Assembly: GCA_020860575.1 (NCBI GenBank)
Contig: JAJBUB010000099.1
Location: forward strand, 1-36,918
Length of the DNA stretch: 36,918 bases
Reading direction: 5' to 3'
Source: Clostridiales bacterium
Lineage (GTDB): Bacteria > Bacillota > Clostridia > Oscillospirales > Oscillospiraceae
The stretch's first letter is position 1. Each line of letters opens with the position of its first letter. The notes beneath the pieces were generated by a model. It was not told the origin of the DNA and ran no database searches. It saw only the letters and a list, made by a program, of their open reading frames with translations. Shown here piece by piece: positions 19,819 to 29,669 of the stretch. The translations under genes and the position numbers were made by a program.

Positions 19819-21057
19819 ATGAAGGAGATATCCGGCGGCATTGTGGCCGCAAAGGGATTCCGGGCCGCCGGGATCCGGGTGGGGGTGAAGGCCTCCGCCC
19901 TGCCCATGGACGGAGAGGGAAAAAAAGACTTGATGCTGCTGGTCTCTGACCGGCCCTGCACGATTGCGGGGATGTTCACCACCAACCGGGTGAAGGCCGC
20001 GCCGGTGCTGCTCACGAAGGCAACCATCGCCGACGGCGTGTGCCAGGCGGTCATCGCCAACTCGGGCAACGCCAACGCCTGCGCCCCCAACAGCGAGCAG
20101 CACGCACAGGAGATGTGCCGGGCGGCGGCAACGGCACTGGGCCTGGCTCCGTCGGACGTGGCGGTGGCCTCCACCGGGGTCATTGGGCAGGAGCTGAACA
20201 TTCGGGCTATCACGGAGGGCGTCCCCGCCCTGGTGGAGAAGCTGTCGGATGCCCCCTCCGCCTCGGAGGACGCCGCCCATGCCATTATGACCACCGACAC
20301 CGTCAAAAAGGAGATCGCCGTGGAGACGGAGATCGGCGGCGTCACCGTCCGGGTGGGGGGCATTGCCAAAGGCTCCGGCATGATACACCCCAATATGGGC
20401 ACCATGCTCAGCTTTGTTACCACCGACTGCGCCATCACCCCCAAGCTGCTCACCGAGCTGGTACACGAGGTAGTGCCCCGGACGTTCAACCGGGTGACGG
20501 TGGACGGGGACACCTCCACCAACGACACTTTCCTGGTGCTGGCCAACGGCAGCGCAGGAAATCCCCTCATCGACTGGCAGGGACCGGAGTATCTGGCACT
20601 GAAAGAAGCCCTCACGGCCGTCTGCACCTATCTGGCCCGGAGCATGGCCGCCGACGGAGAGGGGGCCAGCCGACTGCTCACCTGCACCGTCCACGGGGCA
20701 GAAAACGAGGCCAAGGCGGAGCGGCTCAGCCGGGCGGTGGTGGGCTCCTCTCTGGTGAAGGCCGCCATGTTCGGCGCAGATGCCAACTTTGGCCGGGTGC
20801 TGTGCGCCATGGGCTATTCCGGGGCGCAGTTCGACCCGGAGACGGTGGATATCTGCTTCCGCTCCCAGGGGGGCGAGGTCCAGGTCTGCCGGGACGGCAT
20901 GGGCCTGAGCTTTGACGAGGATGTGGCCAAGGTGGTTTTGAGCCAGGATGAGGTAGTGATCGACGTCGCCCTCCGGGAGGGAGCGGCGGAGGCCACCTGC
21001 TGGGGCTGCGACCTGACCTACGACTACGTGAAGATCAACGGAGATTACAGGAGCTGA
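19819..21057 (+). CDS. argJ: bifunctional ornithine acetyltransferase/N-acetylglutamate synthase
   Basis: ANSGNANAC..., VNGDTSTNDT-type autoproteolysis neighbourhood (here VDGDTSTNDTF), C-terminal DLTYDYVKINGDYRS. Confidence 0.96.
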   Translation: MKEISGGIVAAKGFRAAGIRVGVKASALPMDGEGKKDLMLLVSDRPCTIAGMFTTNRVKAAPVLLTKATIADGVCQAVIANSGNANACAPNSEQHAQEMCRAAATALGLAPSDVAVASTGVIGQELNIRAITEGVPALVEKLSDAPSASEDAAHAIMTTDTVKKEIAVETEIGGVTVRVGGIAKGSGMIHPNMGTMLSFVTTDCAITPKLLTELVHEVVPRTFNRVTVDGDTSTNDTFLVLANGSAGNPLIDWQGPEYLALKEALTAVCTYLARSMAADGEGASRLLTCTVHGAENEAKAERLSRAVVGSSLVKAAMFGADANFGRVLCAMGYSGAQFDPETVDICFRSQGGEVQVCRDGMGLSFDEDVAKVVLSQDEVVIDVALREGAAEATCWGCDLTYDYVKINGDYRS

Positions 21058-21065
21058 GAGAGAAA

Positions 21066-21920
21066 ATGGCCTACGATCATGTGCAGCGGGCGCAGGTGCT
21101 GGTAGAGGCCCTGCCCTATATCCAGAAGTACAGCGGTAAGACGGTGGTGGTGAAGTATGGCGGCAACGCCATGGTCTCCGAGGACCTCCGCTCCGCCGTC
21201 ATGAGCGACATTATCCTCCTCCGGCTGGTGGGCATCCATGTGGTGGTGGTCCACGGCGGCGGGCCGGAGATCAACGAGATGCTGAAAAAGATCGGCAAGC
21301 AGTCTCAATTTGTAGACGGTCTCCGCTACACCGACGAGGAGACGATAGACATCGTCCAGCAGGTGCTCTGCGGCCGGGTGAACAAAAACCTGGTGGCCAC
21401 TCTGAACCGGATGGGCGGTCGGGCCATGGGCCTGTGCGGGATGGACGCCTCTCTGTTTGAGGCGAAGGTAAAGGACGTGAAATACGGCCTGGTGGGAGAG
21501 ATCGTCAAGGTGAACCCCCAGGTGGTCCAGGACTGCATCGACAACGGCTATATCCCGGTGGTCTCCACCGTTGCCCAGGGGATGGACGCTCAGACCGCCT
21601 ATAACATCAACGCCGACACTGCCGCCGCCAAGCTGGCGGTGGCCCTGAATGCGGAAAAGCTCATCCTGCTGACCGACGTCCGGGGCCTCTTGCGGGACCC
21701 CAAGGATGAGGACACCCTCATCCATGTGGTGCATATGTCCGACGTACCCATGCTGAAAAAGACAGGGGTCATCTCCGGGGGCATGATCCCCAAGGTGGAG
21801 TGCTGCGTGGAGGCGGTGCGCTCCGGCGTCAAGCGGAGCCACATCCTGGACGGGCGCATTCCCCACTCCATCCTCATTGAGATGCTGTCGGACAAGGGCA
21901 TCGGCACCATGCTGCTGTGA
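21066..21920 (+). CDS. argB: acetylglutamate kinase
   Basis: GKTVVVKYGGNAM, VVVHGGGPEINEML, C-terminal GMIPKVECCVEAV. Confidence 0.97.
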   Translation: MAYDHVQRAQVLVEALPYIQKYSGKTVVVKYGGNAMVSEDLRSAVMSDIILLRLVGIHVVVVHGGGPEINEMLKKIGKQSQFVDGLRYTDEETIDIVQQVLCGRVNKNLVATLNRMGGRAMGLCGMDASLFEAKVKDVKYGLVGEIVKVNPQVVQDCIDNGYIPVVSTVAQGMDAQTAYNINADTAAAKLAVALNAEKLILLTDVRGLLRDPKDEDTLIHVVHMSDVPMLKKTGVISGGMIPKVECCVEAVRSGVKRSHILDGRIPHSILIEMLSDKGIGTMLL

Positions 21921-21939
21921 CATGGGAGGCGAGAATGAG

Positions 21940-23127
21940 ATGACGTTTGAAGAATTGAAGGCGCTGGACCACCAGTACACCATGCAGACCTATGGACGCT
22001 TTGACGTGGCCCTGGACCACGGCGTGGGGGCCACCCTCTACGGCCTGGAGGGAGAGGAGTACATCGACTTTGCCAGCGGCATCGGGGTGAATTCCCTGGG
22101 CTACGGCCACCCCGCCTGGGTGAAGGCGGTGGAGGAGCAGGCTCACAAGCTGGCCCACGCCTCCAACCTGTTCTATACCGAGCCATACGCCCGGCTGGCG
22201 GAGACGCTTTGCAAGCGCACAGGGATGTCCGCTGTGTTTTTCGCCAACGGCGGCGGCGAGGCCAACGAGGGCATTATCAAGCTGGCCCGGAAATACTCCT
22301 TTGACAAATACGGCAAGGGCCGGGCCAACATCGTGACCCTCCGCAACTCCTTCCACGGACGCACCATCACCACCCTCCAGGCCACGGGTCAGGAGGTGTT
22401 CCACAACTACTTTTTCCCCTTCACCGAGGGTTTCCGCTATGCCGAGGCCAACGACCTGGCCTCCGTCCAGGCCCAGGCGGGGGAGGACACCTGCGCCGTC
22501 CTGCTGGAGCTGGTGCAGGGAGAGGGGGGCGTGCTGCCCCTGGACAAGGGCTTTGTCCAGTCGGTGGCAGACTGGTGCCGGGAGCGGGACCTGCTCCTGC
22601 TGGTGGACGAGGTGCAGACCGGCGTGGGCCGGACCGGCTCCCTGTTCTGCTTCCAGCAGTACGGCATTCAGCCGGACGCCGTGACCTTTGCCAAGGGCAT
22701 TGCCGGAGGCCTCCCCATGGCGGGAGTGATGGCGAACGAGAAGTGCCGGAACGTTCTCGGCCCCGGCACCCACGCCACCACCTTCGGCGGCAACCCCAGC
22801 ACCGCCAGCGCGGCGCTGGCGGTGCTGGATGTGCTGAGCGACGACTATATGCCGGAGATCAACGCCAAGGGCAATTACATCATGGAGACGGTCCGCAGCT
22901 GGGACGCCCCCTGTGTGGAGACTGTCCGGGGCCTGGGCCTGATGGTGGGTATCGTCCTGAAGGACGGGACGGACCGGGCCGCTTTGATTGGGCAGATCTA
23001 CGGGAAAAACGTCCTGGTGCTCACCGCCGGACCGAAAACCATCCGGCTGCTACCGCCGCTGACCATCTCCTATGAAGAGCTGGACAAGGGGCTGGCCGCC
23101 GTGAAGGACGTACTGGTAAACGCCTGA
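21940..23127 (+). CDS. argD: acetylornithine aminotransferase
   Basis: Class-III aminotransferase: YIDFASGIGVNSLGYGHPAW, LLLVDEVQTGVGRTG, TFAKGIAGGLPMAG; start could also be 21922. Confidence 0.95.
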   Translation: MTFEELKALDHQYTMQTYGRFDVALDHGVGATLYGLEGEEYIDFASGIGVNSLGYGHPAWVKAVEEQAHKLAHASNLFYTEPYARLAETLCKRTGMSAVFFANGGGEANEGIIKLARKYSFDKYGKGRANIVTLRNSFHGRTITTLQATGQEVFHNYFFPFTEGFRYAEANDLASVQAQAGEDTCAVLLELVQGEGGVLPLDKGFVQSVADWCRERDLLLLVDEVQTGVGRTGSLFCFQQYGIQPDAVTFAKGIAGGLPMAGVMANEKCRNVLGPGTHATTFGGNPSTASAALAVLDVLSDDYMPEINAKGNYIMETVRSWDAPCVETVRGLGLMVGIVLKDGTDRAALIGQIYGKNVLVLTAGPKTIRLLPPLTISYEELDKGLAAVKDVLVNA

Positions 23128-23128
23128 A

Positions 23129-23295
23129 TTAAGGCATCACCGCACAAATGTGTCTGCGACGTCTGGCGGCCATTTTCCGCCAGAAATGCGTTGCAAAAAC
23201 TTGAAATACACAAAGTATTCCTGCGTTTTTGCGCCTTTTTCTGACGAAAAATTTCTCGCCAGCCGTTCTTGCCAATTTATGCGGTGACGCCTTAA
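23129..23295. repeat. MITE-like foldable element with imperfect terminal inverted repeats
   Basis: TTAAGGCATCACCGCACAAAT ... AATTTATGCGGTGACGCCTTAA (167 bp) with internal nested palindromes (TGGCGG/CCGCCA, GCAAAAAC/GTTTTTGC, AAATAC/GTATT). Confidence 0.6.
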
Positions 23296-23322
23296 CCCTG
23301 TCAACGAGAGGAGCGAAAAACA

Positions 23323-24246
23323 ATGAAAAAAGACCTGTTAAAGATGCTGGACCTGTCCGGCGACGACATTCTGAGTATTCTCGACCTGGCGGATCAGCTG
23401 AAATATGAGCAGCAGCACGGTCTGCCCCACCACTATCTGGAGGGCAAGACTCTGGCCATGATCTTTGAGAAAAATTCCACCCGCACCCGGGTCTCCTTTG
23501 AGACGGGGATGTTCCAGCTGGGGGGCCACGCCCTGTTCCTCTCCGGCAAAGAGAGCCAGATCGGCCGGGGTGAGCCTATCCAGGACACCGCACGGGTCCT
23601 CAGCCGCTACTGCGACGGCATTATGATCCGCACCTTCGACCAGGCTGAGGTGGAGAACCTGGCAAAGTACGCGGACATCCCGGTCATCAACGGCCTGACC
23701 GACTTCGCCCACCCCTGTCAGGTGCTGGCAGACCTGATGACTGTCCGGGAGCGGATGGCCCATCTGGACGGGCTGAAGCTCTGCTTCATCGGAGACGGCA
23801 ACAATATGGCAAACTCCCTCATCGTAGGCGGCCTGAAATGCGGTATGGAAGTGGCCGTGGCCTGCCCGGAGGGATACTGGCCAGACCAGCAGGTGCTGGA
23901 CTTCGCCGCCTCCGTCCAGGGCGGCAGCCGGTTTACCCTCACCGGGGACATCTTTGAGGCGGCCAAGGACGCCGACGTGATCTTTACCGACGTCTGGGCC
24001 TCCATGGGCCAGGAGGAGGAACGGGCCAAGCGGGCCGTGGCCTTCGCCGGGTACCAGGTGAACGACCAGCTCATGGCTGTGGCCCATCCCGGCTGCATGG
24101 TGCAGCACTGCCTCCCCGCTCACCGGGGGGAGGAGATCACCGAAGAGGTGTTCGAGCAGCACGCCGACGAGATCTTCGACGAGGCGGAGAACCGTCTCCA
24201 CGCCCAGAAGGCCGTCATGGTCCTGTTGATGCACGGCGAGATCTGA
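23323..24246 (+). CDS. argF: ornithine carbamoyltransferase
   Basis: MIFEKNSTRTRVSFETGM, NGLTDFAHPCQVLADLMT, HCLPAHRGEEIT. Confidence 0.97.
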   Translation: MKKDLLKMLDLSGDDILSILDLADQLKYEQQHGLPHHYLEGKTLAMIFEKNSTRTRVSFETGMFQLGGHALFLSGKESQIGRGEPIQDTARVLSRYCDGIMIRTFDQAEVENLAKYADIPVINGLTDFAHPCQVLADLMTVRERMAHLDGLKLCFIGDGNNMANSLIVGGLKCGMEVAVACPEGYWPDQQVLDFAASVQGGSRFTLTGDIFEAAKDADVIFTDVWASMGQEEERAKRAVAFAGYQVNDQLMAVAHPGCMVQHCLPAHRGEEITEEVFEQHADEIFDEAENRLHAQKAVMVLLMHGEI

Positions 24247-24265: not shown

Positions 24266-24305
24266 CCGCCCTCCGGGCTTCGCGTTTGCGAGGCTCGGAG
24301 GGCGG
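24266..24305. terminator. bidirectional terminator between argF and convergent M14 gene
   Basis: CCGCCCTCCGgGC...GCtCGGAGGGCGG hairpin followed by CTTTCTT. Confidence 0.75.
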
Positions 24306-24321
24306 CTTTCTTACATTCTGC

Positions 24322-25254
24322 TCAACTTTGCTCCGGCAGGAGCTTGACCACAGCGGTGTTGGCGTAGGTCATGGGGTCGGTGTGGAGGAAGAAGACCACC
24401 CCATCGCAGGGGGCCAGAAGCCGCTCCATCGTCTCTCCTGCACCCGGGTCCAAAATCTCCGCCAGAGGGTCGCCGGCGATGACCCGGTCCCCCGGCTTGC
24501 AGACGGGGCGGAAGATGCCCGCGTAACGGGGCCGGACGGAGGCCATGCTGCTGTCCTCCCAGATCTGGGAGCGGAAGCCCCCCTGAATGGGCCGGTTGAG
24601 GATGCCCTCCCGGCTGAGGAACCGGAAGATGGCCCGCACCGCCTGGTCGGCGCTCTCCTCATCGATGGAGGTGGTGGTCGTGGTGTAGAGGCTGTAGGCG
24701 TTGGTGTCCCAGATCTGCCAGTTGTAGTTCAGTGTGGTGGTATCGTAGGGCCGGGGGTCCCGGAGGACGATGTGGGGCATACCGAACCACTCCGCCTTTT
24801 CCACGTTCTCAAATCCGGTGCGCATGATGCGGATATGGGGCAGGAACCGGCCCGGCATATAGAAGGAGGCCAGCTGGATGCCGTTGTCGTACCGGGAGAT
24901 CTGGCGGAACACTCCGTCGGCGATGCGCTGGGTGGTCTCCCCCAGGTCGTAGCCGGGGAACATCCGGTTGATGTCCGTGTTGTCCGTGGGCCAGAACCGC
25001 TTGCCCACGTTCATGGAGTAGGGGTTCAGGGAGGGGAGCACCAGAATCTCCTTCCCGGGATTCAACTCCCCCCGCTGCTCCGCCCGGCGGAGGGCCTTCA
25101 CCAGCTGGGAGCAGGTATAAATTTGCTGATACTCGTTGCCCCGGAGGCTACCCACCACGCAGAGGGAGCGCTCCCCCTGGCCAAAGGTGTAGCCGTGGAC
25201 CCGGAAGTTCTCTCGGTAAAGGGAGGGGATCTCATAGATGACCGACTGCCTCAT
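24322..25254 (-). CDS. AstE/aspartoacylase-like M14-fold protein, degenerate metal site
   Basis: Co-linear with downstream paralog (SLNPYSMN.../DINRMFPG; FLPHIRI) but RGNE replaces HGxE and the third-His position is Ala (IQLAS); C-terminal barrel-like domain AGIFRPVCKPGDRVIAGDPLAEI. Confidence 0.85.
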   Translation of the reverse strand: MRQSVIYEIPSLYRENFRVHGYTFGQGERSLCVVGSLRGNEYQQIYTCSQLVKALRRAEQRGELNPGKEILVLPSLNPYSMNVGKRFWPTDNTDINRMFPGYDLGETTQRIADGVFRQISRYDNGIQLASFYMPGRFLPHIRIMRTGFENVEKAEWFGMPHIVLRDPRPYDTTTLNYNWQIWDTNAYSLYTTTTTSIDEESADQAVRAIFRFLSREGILNRPIQGGFRSQIWEDSSMASVRPRYAGIFRPVCKPGDRVIAGDPLAEILDPGAGETMERLLAPCDGVVFFLHTDPMTYANTAVVKLLPEQS

Positions 25255-25255
25255 G

Positions 25256-26194
25256 TCACATCGCCTCCTTGCGGATACGGGCCAGCAGAGAGCCCTCGTC
25301 CACCACGGGGTATTCCCGGACGGTGAACAGCAGCCCGTCCGCCGGGGCGGTGATCTCCCGGAGCAGCTCTCCGGTGAGGGGGTTTACCACAGAGCCAATG
25401 CGATCTCCGGCGGAGAGGATGGCCCCGTGGGGCTGCTCCTTCAAAAAGATGCCGGAAACCGGGGCGTTTAAGTAGCAGATGGCGTCGTCCTTCTCGGAGA
25501 CGAGGGGGGTGCGCACCGGGGCCACCGGCCCCGTCCAGATGCCCAGCTCAGCCATGAGCCGGAAAATGCCCTCGGTGAGCTGGTCGCCATAGGCGGGGGT
25601 CAGGCGCATCCCCACTCCCATCTCCACCACCAGGGTGGGCACGTCCCGGCTGTTGAGGCTGTGGGCCAGGGTGGACTCCAGCACCGTACTGGCCCCATGG
25701 ACCCAGATAAAGTCCACGTTGGCCAGCTTCGCGTAGTCCATCAGCCGGTCACGGAACAGCTCATTGATGCGGATTTGGGGCAACTCGGTGAGATAGATAT
25801 TGCTGGCGTGGATGTCCAGGCACAGGTCGGAGCCCAGCAGGTCCTCCATAATACGGGCGGCCATATCCTCCGTCATCGCCCCGTCCCGGCTGCCGGGAAA
25901 GAGCCGGTTCATGTCCAGGTCAAACCCTGGGATGCCCCGGGTCACGGAGTTGATGCCCAGGGGATTCATGGCGGGGTACAGGTCCACCGTCCCCGCCAGA
26001 TACTCCGGGTGGGCGGCAATGCGCCGGTTCACCTGATAGCAGACGTACTGCCCCTCCAGCTCGTCCCCGTGGATGCCGGTGACGATGCTGATGCGCCTGC
26101 CGCAGTCCTGGCCCCCGGTGGGGGTCAGGCGGTTTTTCTGGATGACCAGATTTTCAAAGACAGGCAGGGGAATGGATGCCACTGTCTGTATCAT
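25256..26194 (-). CDS. succinylglutamate desuccinylase/aspartoacylase family protein (intact zinc site)
   Basis: GIHGDELEGQ (HxxE zinc ligands), DLCLDIHAS (third His), TLVVEMGVG (candidate catalytic Glu), DMNRLFPG; start 26194 behind AGGAGGAAG RBS. Confidence 0.9.
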   Translation of the reverse strand: MIQTVASIPLPVFENLVIQKNRLTPTGGQDCGRRISIVTGIHGDELEGQYVCYQVNRRIAAHPEYLAGTVDLYPAMNPLGINSVTRGIPGFDLDMNRLFPGSRDGAMTEDMAARIMEDLLGSDLCLDIHASNIYLTELPQIRINELFRDRLMDYAKLANVDFIWVHGASTVLESTLAHSLNSRDVPTLVVEMGVGMRLTPAYGDQLTEGIFRLMAELGIWTGPVAPVRTPLVSEKDDAICYLNAPVSGIFLKEQPHGAILSAGDRIGSVVNPLTGELLREITAPADGLLFTVREYPVVDEGSLLARIRKEAM

Positions 26195-27018: not shown

Positions 27019-27684
27019 TCACACCGCCGTCAACCGTTCCACCGTCTGCACGATGCCGCTGTAGTCCAGAGGCTCTGCCTCCACCAGGCGGCCCAGCTCT
27101 GCCAGGCACGCCCGGTCATACCGGATGGTACACCGGTCGATGCGGCCCTGGAGCCGCCGGACCTCCCGGTGCAGGTCCACCTGGGAGGCGTGGAGCCGAC
27201 CAAAGAGGTCGATGCGCTCCACCCGCTTGCCCACCTTGATGATGTTCCGGGTGTTCTCGTCCTCTACCTGGTCGTCGATGATGCCCCAGAAGGCCAGAAT
27301 GTTGTCCGCGATCTTCTGAAACTCCAGCATGGGGGCGTCGCTGAGACGGGCACGGTTCATCTCATAGACCGCCAGCTGGATGTAGCTCAGCTCCTCGGTG
27401 CCGATCTCCTGGCGCAGCTCGACAGCGTTGTCATAGGCCCGGCGGAGGTTGCTGGCGATGGAGTTGGGGTCGCTCTCGTCAAAGGGGTAGCGGCGGAGAA
27501 AGTTCTGCGCCGTGGGGTAGATGTTGGGGATCTCCAGGGAGCGGCACAGCTCCCCATAGGTGTCCCCCTTGTCCAGCATATCGTCATAGCTCTTGGCAAA
27601 CAGCCGCAGGGAGGTGTACACCCGCTCGGAATAACGACCCAGCCAGTACAGCCGGTCGGTGACCTCTATCGACTTAATACCCAT
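27019..27684 (-). CDS. alpha-E domain protein (former DUF403), short form
   Basis: LYWLGRYSERVYTSLRLF N-terminal alpha-E signature; all-helical 221 aa; located between CP-ATP-grasp and transglutaminase genes. Confidence 0.88.
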   Translation of the reverse strand: MGIKSIEVTDRLYWLGRYSERVYTSLRLFAKSYDDMLDKGDTYGELCRSLEIPNIYPTAQNFLRRYPFDESDPNSIASNLRRAYDNAVELRQEIGTEELSYIQLAVYEMNRARLSDAPMLEFQKIADNILAFWGIIDDQVEDENTRNIIKVGKRVERIDLFGRLHASQVDLHREVRRLQGRIDRCTIRYDRACLAELGRLVEAEPLDYSGIVQTVERLTAV

Positions 27685-28985
27685 GTGTCCTTAAATCCTC
27701 CTCCCTGAGATGAGTTGACAATGAAGGAATCCGGGTTCCGGGAGAACCGGGTCAGGCCGCTCTTCCACACCACCGGCTCCTCGGCGGAGAGGACGAAGGC
27801 CCGCAGGTCGGCCTTCCGGGGGACCCGGACGCCGTTATCCATGATGTCCAGGTCCTGGAAATCGATGACCTCCTGAGCGATGAACCGGCGGGGCTCCGCT
27901 TTCAACAGGGCTACAAAGTCCTCCTTCTGCCGGGCGGACATCTTGCTGCCAAAGACCACGCCGTAGCCGCCCGCCTCGGCCACGTCCTTGAGCACCAGTG
28001 TGTCCAGATGCTCCAGAACGTACTTCATATCCTCCTTGTAGAAGGGCAGATAGGTGGGTGCATTGGAGAGGATGGGCGTCTCTCCCAGATAGTACTGAAT
28101 CATTTTGGGGACGAAGTAATAGATGCCCTTGTCGTCCGCCACTCCGTTGCCCGGGGCGTTGAGGATGGCTACCTGGCCCTTCCGGTAGGCCTGGAACAGA
28201 CCGGGCACGCCGATGAGGGATTCCGGACGGAAGCTGAGGGGGTCCAGGAAATCGTCGGAAATGCGGCGGTAGACCGCCCCCACCCGCTCCTTTTTGCCGG
28301 TGTAGTCCAGGAGGTAAACCCCGTCCTCCTCCACCACCAGGTCCTGACCGTTGACCAGGGGGGAGTGGGTCTGCTCCGCCAGATAGGAGTGTTCAAAATA
28401 GGCGGCGTTGTACCGTCCGGGGGTGAGCACCACCGTCAGCCCTCCCACGTTGGCGTAGTCCATGGTGTGGCGCAGCAGCTGGGCGTAGTTTCGGTTGTCC
28501 TCGATGTGGAACTCCTGGAAGGTGCGGGGGCTGCTCCGGCGGCACAGGTCCCGGACGATCAGGGGATAAGATGCCCCGGACGGCACCCGGAGATTGTCCT
28601 CCAGAATGTACCAGCTCCCGTCCTTCCCCAGCACCAGGTCGATGCCGGAGATGTGGGAGAACACCCCGCCGGGAGGCCGGATGCCCTCGCACTGGGGCAG
28701 GTAGCCGCTGGAGGCGTAGATGAACTCCTCCGGCACCACCCGGTCCCGGACGATCTTCTTCTCGTTGTAGATGTCCTCCAGAAACAGGTTCAGCGCCTTC
28801 ACCCGCTGCCGCAGGCCCCGGTCCAGCAGGTCAAATTCGTCCGCCGGAATGACCCGGGGGATGGCGTCGAAGGGGAACAGCTGCTCCTTGAAGGTCCCGT
28901 TCTTGTAGATGCCGAACTTCACGCCGTACCGGGCCAGCAGCTCGTTGACCGAGTTGGCCCGTTCGATCAGATCCATCTCATACAT
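27666..28985 (-). CDS. circularly permuted type 2 ATP-grasp protein (former DUF404/407)
   Basis: KDGSWYILEDNLRVPSGASYPLIVR, LTPGRYNAAYFEHSYLA, SFIVNSSQGGGFKDTWVL; start MYEMDLIERANSVN at 28985. Confidence 0.92.
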   Translation of the reverse strand: MYEMDLIERANSVNELLARYGVKFGIYKNGTFKEQLFPFDAIPRVIPADEFDLLDRGLRQRVKALNLFLEDIYNEKKIVRDRVVPEEFIYASSGYLPQCEGIRPPGGVFSHISGIDLVLGKDGSWYILEDNLRVPSGASYPLIVRDLCRRSSPRTFQEFHIEDNRNYAQLLRHTMDYANVGGLTVVLTPGRYNAAYFEHSYLAEQTHSPLVNGQDLVVEEDGVYLLDYTGKKERVGAVYRRISDDFLDPLSFRPESLIGVPGLFQAYRKGQVAILNAPGNGVADDKGIYYFVPKMIQYYLGETPILSNAPTYLPFYKEDMKYVLEHLDTLVLKDVAEAGGYGVVFGSKMSARQKEDFVALLKAEPRRFIAQEVIDFQDLDIMDNGVRVPRKADLRAFVLSAEEPVVWKSGLTRFSRNPDSFIVNSSQGGGFKDTWVLSR

Positions 28986-29086: not shown

Positions 29087-29116
29087 ATGTTATCACGTCA
29101 GGGCAAGGAATGTCAA
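29087..29116 (-). promoter_or_regulatory. predicted promoter of the ATP-grasp operon
   Basis: Reverse strand TTGACA-18 bp-TAACAT. Confidence 0.5.
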
Positions 29117-29258: not shown

Positions 29259-29669
29259 ATGGTTAGAGTTATCATGGACCACAAGGGTTCCGGCAAGACA
29301 AAGCAACTGATCGATCTGATCAATTCCGCGGTTCTCACAGAGCACGGCAACGTCGTGTGCATCGAGTGGGATCGGGAGCTGGTCTATGCGATTCACTATC
29401 ATATCCGCCTGATCGAGGCCAGCGACTTCTATCTGCCCAATTTTGAGGTGCTCAAGGGCTTTGTCAGCGGCCTTTACGCAGGTAATTACGACATCACCCA
29501 CATCTTTATCGACAATCTGAGCAAGGTCGTCCCCATCAAGGACGCCAACCAGATCGAGGAGTTCCTGGACTGGATGGAGCGGTTCAGTGAGAAGAACGGT
29601 CTGAAGTTCACCATCACCATCTCCGCCGATGCCGAGACGGCCACCGACGGGATCAAGAAGTATATGTAA
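29259..29669 (+). CDS. small P-loop-like protein of unknown function (136 aa)
   Basis: MVRVIMDHKGSGKTKQLIDLINSA (P-loop-like) and ITHIFIDNLSKV (Walker B-like); AAAGGAG RBS; promoter TTGAAT-17-TAGAAT upstream. Confidence 0.8.
   Translation: MVRVIMDHKGSGKTKQLIDLINSAVLTEHGNVVCIEWDRELVYAIHYHIRLIEASDFYLPNFEVLKGFVSGLYAGNYDITHIFIDNLSKVVPIKDANQIEEFLDWMERFSEKNGLKFTITISADAETATDGIKKYM

Follow-up and report, generated by a model that had tools for sequence, protein, structure and literature searches.

A tandem pair of AstE/DoeB-like M14 proteins, one intact and one apparently a pseudoenzyme, at the end of an ATP-grasp/transglutaminase operon of a Clostridiales bacterium

The stretch of DNA considered here (36,918 nucleotides, called the window below) contains an operon of five overlapping or closely spaced genes on the reverse strand, in the order circularly permuted ATP-grasp, Alpha-E, transglutaminase, M14 and degenerate M14. 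This context was not part of the initial annotation of the M14 pair. The predicted circularly permuted ATP-grasp ligase (PF14403/PF04174) occupies positions 27666–28985, with a likely ATG start at 28985 and a longest open reading frame to 29060, and is followed by the Alpha-E protein (PF04168; 27019–27684) and a transglutaminase-like protein (PF08379 and PF01841; 26229–27017), in which Cys, His and Asp motifs were seen by eye. A candidate promoter of the operon (29087–29116, reverse strand; TTGACA-18-TAACAT, with TG before the -10 element) and a candidate terminator between the operon and the forward-strand argF (24266–24305, with a stem of 18 pairs) are consensus matches only. Genes resembling argJ, argB and argD by eye, together with argF recognised by Pfam, lie beside the operon on the forward strand (19819–24246); this neighbourhood occurs only in the closest relatives, so a functional link to arginine biosynthesis was rejected and the proximity treated as chance. 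Divergently from the operon, a forward-strand gene at 29259–29669 encodes 136 amino acids with a P-loop-like GSGKTKQ near the start; it matches no Pfam family above the cut-off.

The intact M14 gene, predicted to encode an AstE/DoeB-like hydrolase of 312 amino acids, is located at 25256–26194, and the degenerate one (310 amino acids) at 24322–25254, both on the reverse strand, with 1 nt between the stop codon of the former and the ATG of the latter. The intact gene begins with an ATG preceded by AGGAGG, which was preferred to an unlikely longer frame with a TTG start reaching 26227, and residues of both proteins are numbered from the ATG; the window's row in one alignment (A2) begins one residue past the ATG-coded Met, which leaves the conclusions unaffected. 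Judged by their sequences, the two proteins are paralogs, as the initial annotation had held, being 23% identical (E 2e-19) and both matching the Pfam family AstE_AspA_cat (PF24827) with 84.7 and 47.1 bits, respectively, above the cut-off (25, as given for the active copy). The DoeB equivalog TIGR02994 was reached by neither of them (50.9 and 31.6 bits against a cut-off of 402.7). Of the features of the AstE/aspartoacylase M14 family, the active copy has the domain, the zinc ligands His, Glu and His and the catalytic Glu; the degenerate copy has the domain and the fold and lacks the zinc-ligand set and the catalytic Glu.

Aligned site by site, His42 of the active copy (26071–26069) corresponds to Arg38 of the degenerate one (25143–25141), Glu45 (26062–26060) to Glu41 (25134–25132), Asp127 (25816–25814) to Gln127 (24876–24874), His129 (25810–25808) to Ala129 (24870–24868) and the catalytic Glu191 (25624–25622) to Tyr190 (24687–24685). 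Both zinc histidines and the catalytic Glu are thus gone, and the ligand Glu41 alone is kept. The degenerate copy was located at 80 loci by a genome scan and at further loci in 295 genomes of the order, and residues were counted in 102–103 ortholog sequences. Arg38 and Glu41 are each present in 102 of 102; position 127 is Gln in 97 and His in 6, position 129 is Ala in 73, Thr in 22, Pro in 4, Cys in 2 and Ser in 2, and position 190 is Tyr in 102 and Phe in one. The active orthologs (n=100) have His, Glu, Asp, His and Glu without variation wherever these sites are covered. The substitutions in the degenerate copy are thus fixed and no product of chance.

The initial annotation, made from the sequence of the window alone, had read a change of His to Arg in SLRGNE, a change of His to Ala in DNGIQLAS and the absence of any VVEMG equivalent. 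All three readings are upheld by the family alignment, in which the RGNE/no-His state is fixed in about 100 orthologs: Arg38 has no exception, Ala129 of the window is never replaced by His among 103 sequences, and Tyr190 stands for the catalytic Glu in 102 of 103. The statement that the protein lacks zinc ligands is correct for both histidines and not for Glu41, and the fixed substitutions support the proposed loss of metal catalysis, as far as sequences can indicate it. Across the ortholog alignment of the degenerate copy no invariant cluster of His or Cys was found, and an alternative metal site was rejected on this ground.

What remains around the former active site is far from variable. 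Arg38, Gly39, Glu41, Gln43, Ser130 and Tyr132 are invariant and Asn40, Gln127 and Tyr190 nearly so; Phe87-Trp88, Asp94 and Asn96-Arg97 around the site are invariant or nearly so, and the orthologs share a DTTTLNYNWQIW-like stretch (Asp-Thr-Thr-Thr-Leu-Asn-Tyr-Asn) with the same degree of conservation. Such unusually strict conservation of polar residues is what might be expected if the degenerate copy were an enzyme of another kind, with a metal-independent or differently metallated chemistry based on Arg38, Glu41, Ser130, Tyr132 and Tyr190. We consider this improbable, given the lack of an invariant cluster of alternative His/Cys ligands, and we know of no M14 relative that works without a metal.

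The predicted structures agree with the view that the fold has been kept. AF2 gave a model of the degenerate copy with pLDDT 88.2 and pTM 0.88, confident apart from residues 82–90, and a similarly confident one of the active copy (pLDDT 87.2), each with an M14-type fold. A Foldseek search with the degenerate copy gave a best E of 1.3e-19 and a TM of 0.76, its best neighbours in the PDB being 3cdx, CphZ (8eip/8ein), 3na6 and DoeB (6twm), and both copies are structurally nearest to AstE/DoeB-type structures. Among the four nearest relatives, which are 98–99% identical at the protein level, dN/dS (omega) is about 0.03 for the degenerate copy and 0.06–0.09 for the active copy; purifying selection on the degenerate copy is strong in these relatives, and stronger than on the active copy. 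A recent pseudogene is ruled out by this value together with fixation across about 100 orthologs. The expectation that the fold would persist after the loss of the site is thus borne out by the model and by selection.

A less degenerate form of the second gene was found in a distant family, represented by six genomes (L165, L166, L176–L187), where the tandem of M14 genes ends the same kind of ATP-grasp/transglutaminase operon (neighbourhood read in two genomes). The second copy keeps HGDE and D(V/I)H there, and Met stands in the position of its catalytic Glu without exception among the six, so that it is possibly, to judge by these motifs, a zinc-binding protein that does not hydrolyse. Orthologs with an intact HxxE...H had been named by the initial annotation as evidence against its own reading; HxxE and DxH do occur in these six genomes, but with Met for the catalytic Glu, and no copy with a complete active site was found at the second position. 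It is conceivable that in some of the lineages that have it the second copy binds metal or acts as a hydrolase, the degenerate form being a product of functionless secondary decay, as the HxxE and DxH of the distant family might suggest. We regard this as highly improbable: the distant copies have themselves lost the catalytic Glu, and the copy of the window type, whose frame is open throughout about 100 orthologs, experiences strong purifying selection (omega about 0.03).

Phylogenetic analysis of 99 sequences places the second copy of the distant family (f81) with the degenerate clade (support 94/91), and the gene next to it joins the active clade (support 100/99), the pattern expected of one old duplication. 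Stepwise decay along one line is therefore likely, although alternative placements of the distant second copy were not rejected (p-AU 0.33 and 0.42). If the tree is right, the catalytic base would have been lost before the metal ligands.

The association of the two genes is close. The active gene is directly upstream of the degenerate copy in 74 of the 80 ortholog loci; the gap does not exceed 10 nt in 81% of the 74 measured pairs, 35 of which have a 4-nt overlap, and a Shine-Dalgarno-like sequence was seen in 68 of the 74. The gene order of the window is found again at most of the orthologous loci: where enough upstream DNA is available, 62 of 67 have the transglutaminase, 60 of 65 Alpha-E and 52 of 57 ATP-grasp. 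In the survey of 295 genomes of the order, the degenerate copy was found in 22 and Alpha-E in 15, all within those 22, and a sixteenth genome has a partial Alpha-E. The remaining six genomes with the pair belong to one genus (L158–L163), in which the M14 genes remain adjacent in varied surroundings; searches of the six genomes, one of them a single contig, detected neither the circularly permuted ATP-grasp nor Alpha-E. No common partner was seen among the neighbours of these stand-alone pairs; a gene similar to NAD-dependent epimerases/dehydratases occurs near four of them, adjoining three and about 2.5 kb off in the fourth.

Correlated evolution was studied by the mirror-tree approach. For 52 complete operons, the partial correlation of the active and degenerate copies was 0.57 (0.47–0.66) and that of ATP-grasp and Alpha-E 0.61, all other pairings giving 0.24 or less, which suggests two modules in the operon, the M14 pair and ATP-grasp with Alpha-E. 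With 29 non-redundant loci, the values were 0.34, 0.49 and 0.27 or less, respectively; the active copy is still the top correlate of the degenerate one after this control, with a weaker signal, and the fall to 0.34 was counted against a partnership of the two proteins.

Several exceptions to the pairing were counted on the same side. Three draft genomes appear to have the degenerate copy without an active one, in a fourth the active copy is broken, one genome has the two M14 genes about 4 kb apart, and genome G249 contains an additional degenerate copy and an additional active copy, unlinked, on different contigs. The three drafts with no active copy found and the fourth with its broken one, as well as the fact that few residues of the protein are as strictly fixed as those at the former active site, would be in accordance with a degenerate copy acting alone as a ligand-binding protein (a sensor, buffer or carrier of the operon product), in which Arg38 would supply the charge formerly contributed by the metal and no stable complex would be formed. 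Such a function seems rather unlikely to us, though it is the main alternative: adjacency at 74 of 80 loci, frequent 4-nt overlaps, co-retention and correlated rates indicate the active copy as a partner, and the exceptions are drafts, with locus L063 looking like a chimeric or truncated reading frame.

Some loci are unusual in other ways. At L063 (1231–2955), likewise a draft and probably chimeric or truncated, the degenerate copy carries an unrelated N-terminal half, about 270 residues long and in the same frame. At L173 (1–12000) the operon is eroded, with an ATP-grasp fragment of 167 amino acids, an intact active M14 gene and a degenerate copy cut to its first 47 residues. In genome G204 (L171 and L172) the M14 pair is more than 20 kb from the ATP-grasp, Alpha-E and transglutaminase genes on one contig.

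To our knowledge, no product of the Anbu-type ATP-grasp/Alpha-E/transglutaminase system is known. The three genes belong to the known Anbu operon, for which peptide making or modification was proposed (PMC6376114, PMC5666114). The first three genes of the window's operon match it in kind and order (PMC6376114; PMC5666114), whereas the peptidase slot, filled there by Anbu, is occupied here by the active/dead M14 pair. No gene of the proteasome fold (PF00227) was matched in the genome of the window, and among 17 genomes PF00227 exceeded the cut-off in four cases, each either on a different contig or at a great distance from the M14 pair.

Comparison with characterised proteins places the pair more closely. 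DoeB/EutE, the N-acetyl-L-2,4-diaminobutanoate deacetylase (6twl, 6twm), and the structures 3cdx, 3na6 and 2qj8 share the fold and family and are, in structure and in sequence, the best neighbours of both copies; the active copy has the same His/Glu/His/Glu site as DoeB/EutE but, by its TIGR02994 score, is not DoeB, and the degenerate copy differs from it by the loss of the zinc His pair and the catalytic Glu. CphZ, the hydrolase of cyanophycin (beta-Asp-Arg) dipeptides (8ein, 8eip), has the same fold, with 14–16% identity in structural alignments, cuts a ligase-made isopeptide and may serve as a model of the active copy. We know of no pseudoenzyme partner of CphZ. Pseudoenzyme partners of active paralogs are already known as a kind. 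In the heterodimeric protease TldD/TldE, TldE is devoid of the conserved metal ligands, and the two act together on a peptide product (PMC5810440); the likeness lies in the pairing of an active protein with a paralog without metal ligands, whereas fold and family are unrelated. TldD/TldE is a precedent of principle, and CphZ one for the cutting of an isopeptide by this fold; neither is a family assignment for the proteins of the window.

The degenerate protein very probably does a real job, since it is strictly conserved in a five-gene operon of these gut bacteria. It would be an ancient fixed pseudoenzyme, descended from a duplicate of the AstE/DoeB-like zinc amidohydrolase beside it, that has lost the zinc site and the catalytic base and still has the fold and, on the substrate side, part of the pocket (Asn96-Arg97, the NR motif). 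We favour, with moderate confidence, the view that it works together with the active M14 protein, either in a heteromer or as a functional pair, on what the ligase makes. The initial annotation had suggested a regulatory or substrate-binding subunit, possibly in an active/inactive heterodimer. Adjacency with close spacing or overlap, retention of the pair where the ligase genes have been lost and correlated evolution speak indirectly for such a partnership; the fixed loss of the site with a distinct invariant pocket, purifying selection, the kept fold and the TldD/TldE precedent also favour it. The dead subunit would shape, stabilise or gate the active one, or hold the substrate, and the pair would hydrolyse an amide or isopeptide product of the ATP-grasp/Alpha-E ligase, with the transglutaminase, filling the place of Anbu in other bacteria. 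Paralogy, the loss of the site and its fixation, selection, the operon, the close spacing and the co-retention are observed, whereas we infer that the two proteins form a complex, what they cut and which way the pathway runs. A bolder version is doubtful, namely that the zinc-free pocket, with an invariant Arg for the metal, makes the protein a product sensor or a metal-independent enzyme in an Anbu-like system whose peptidase was replaced by the M14 pair.

None of the papers found, among which Iyer et al. 2009 (PMC3268129), the founding paper on the operon, was not included, names a pair of M14 proteins encoded here. An operon form with another hydrolase, together with a lineage that has the hydrolase pair only, gives a handle on the bond cut in the Anbu-type system. 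The intact copy, the copy with zinc ligands and no catalytic Glu and the copy without the zinc histidines make up a natural series, which may display the way from a metallo-hydrolase to a partner protein.
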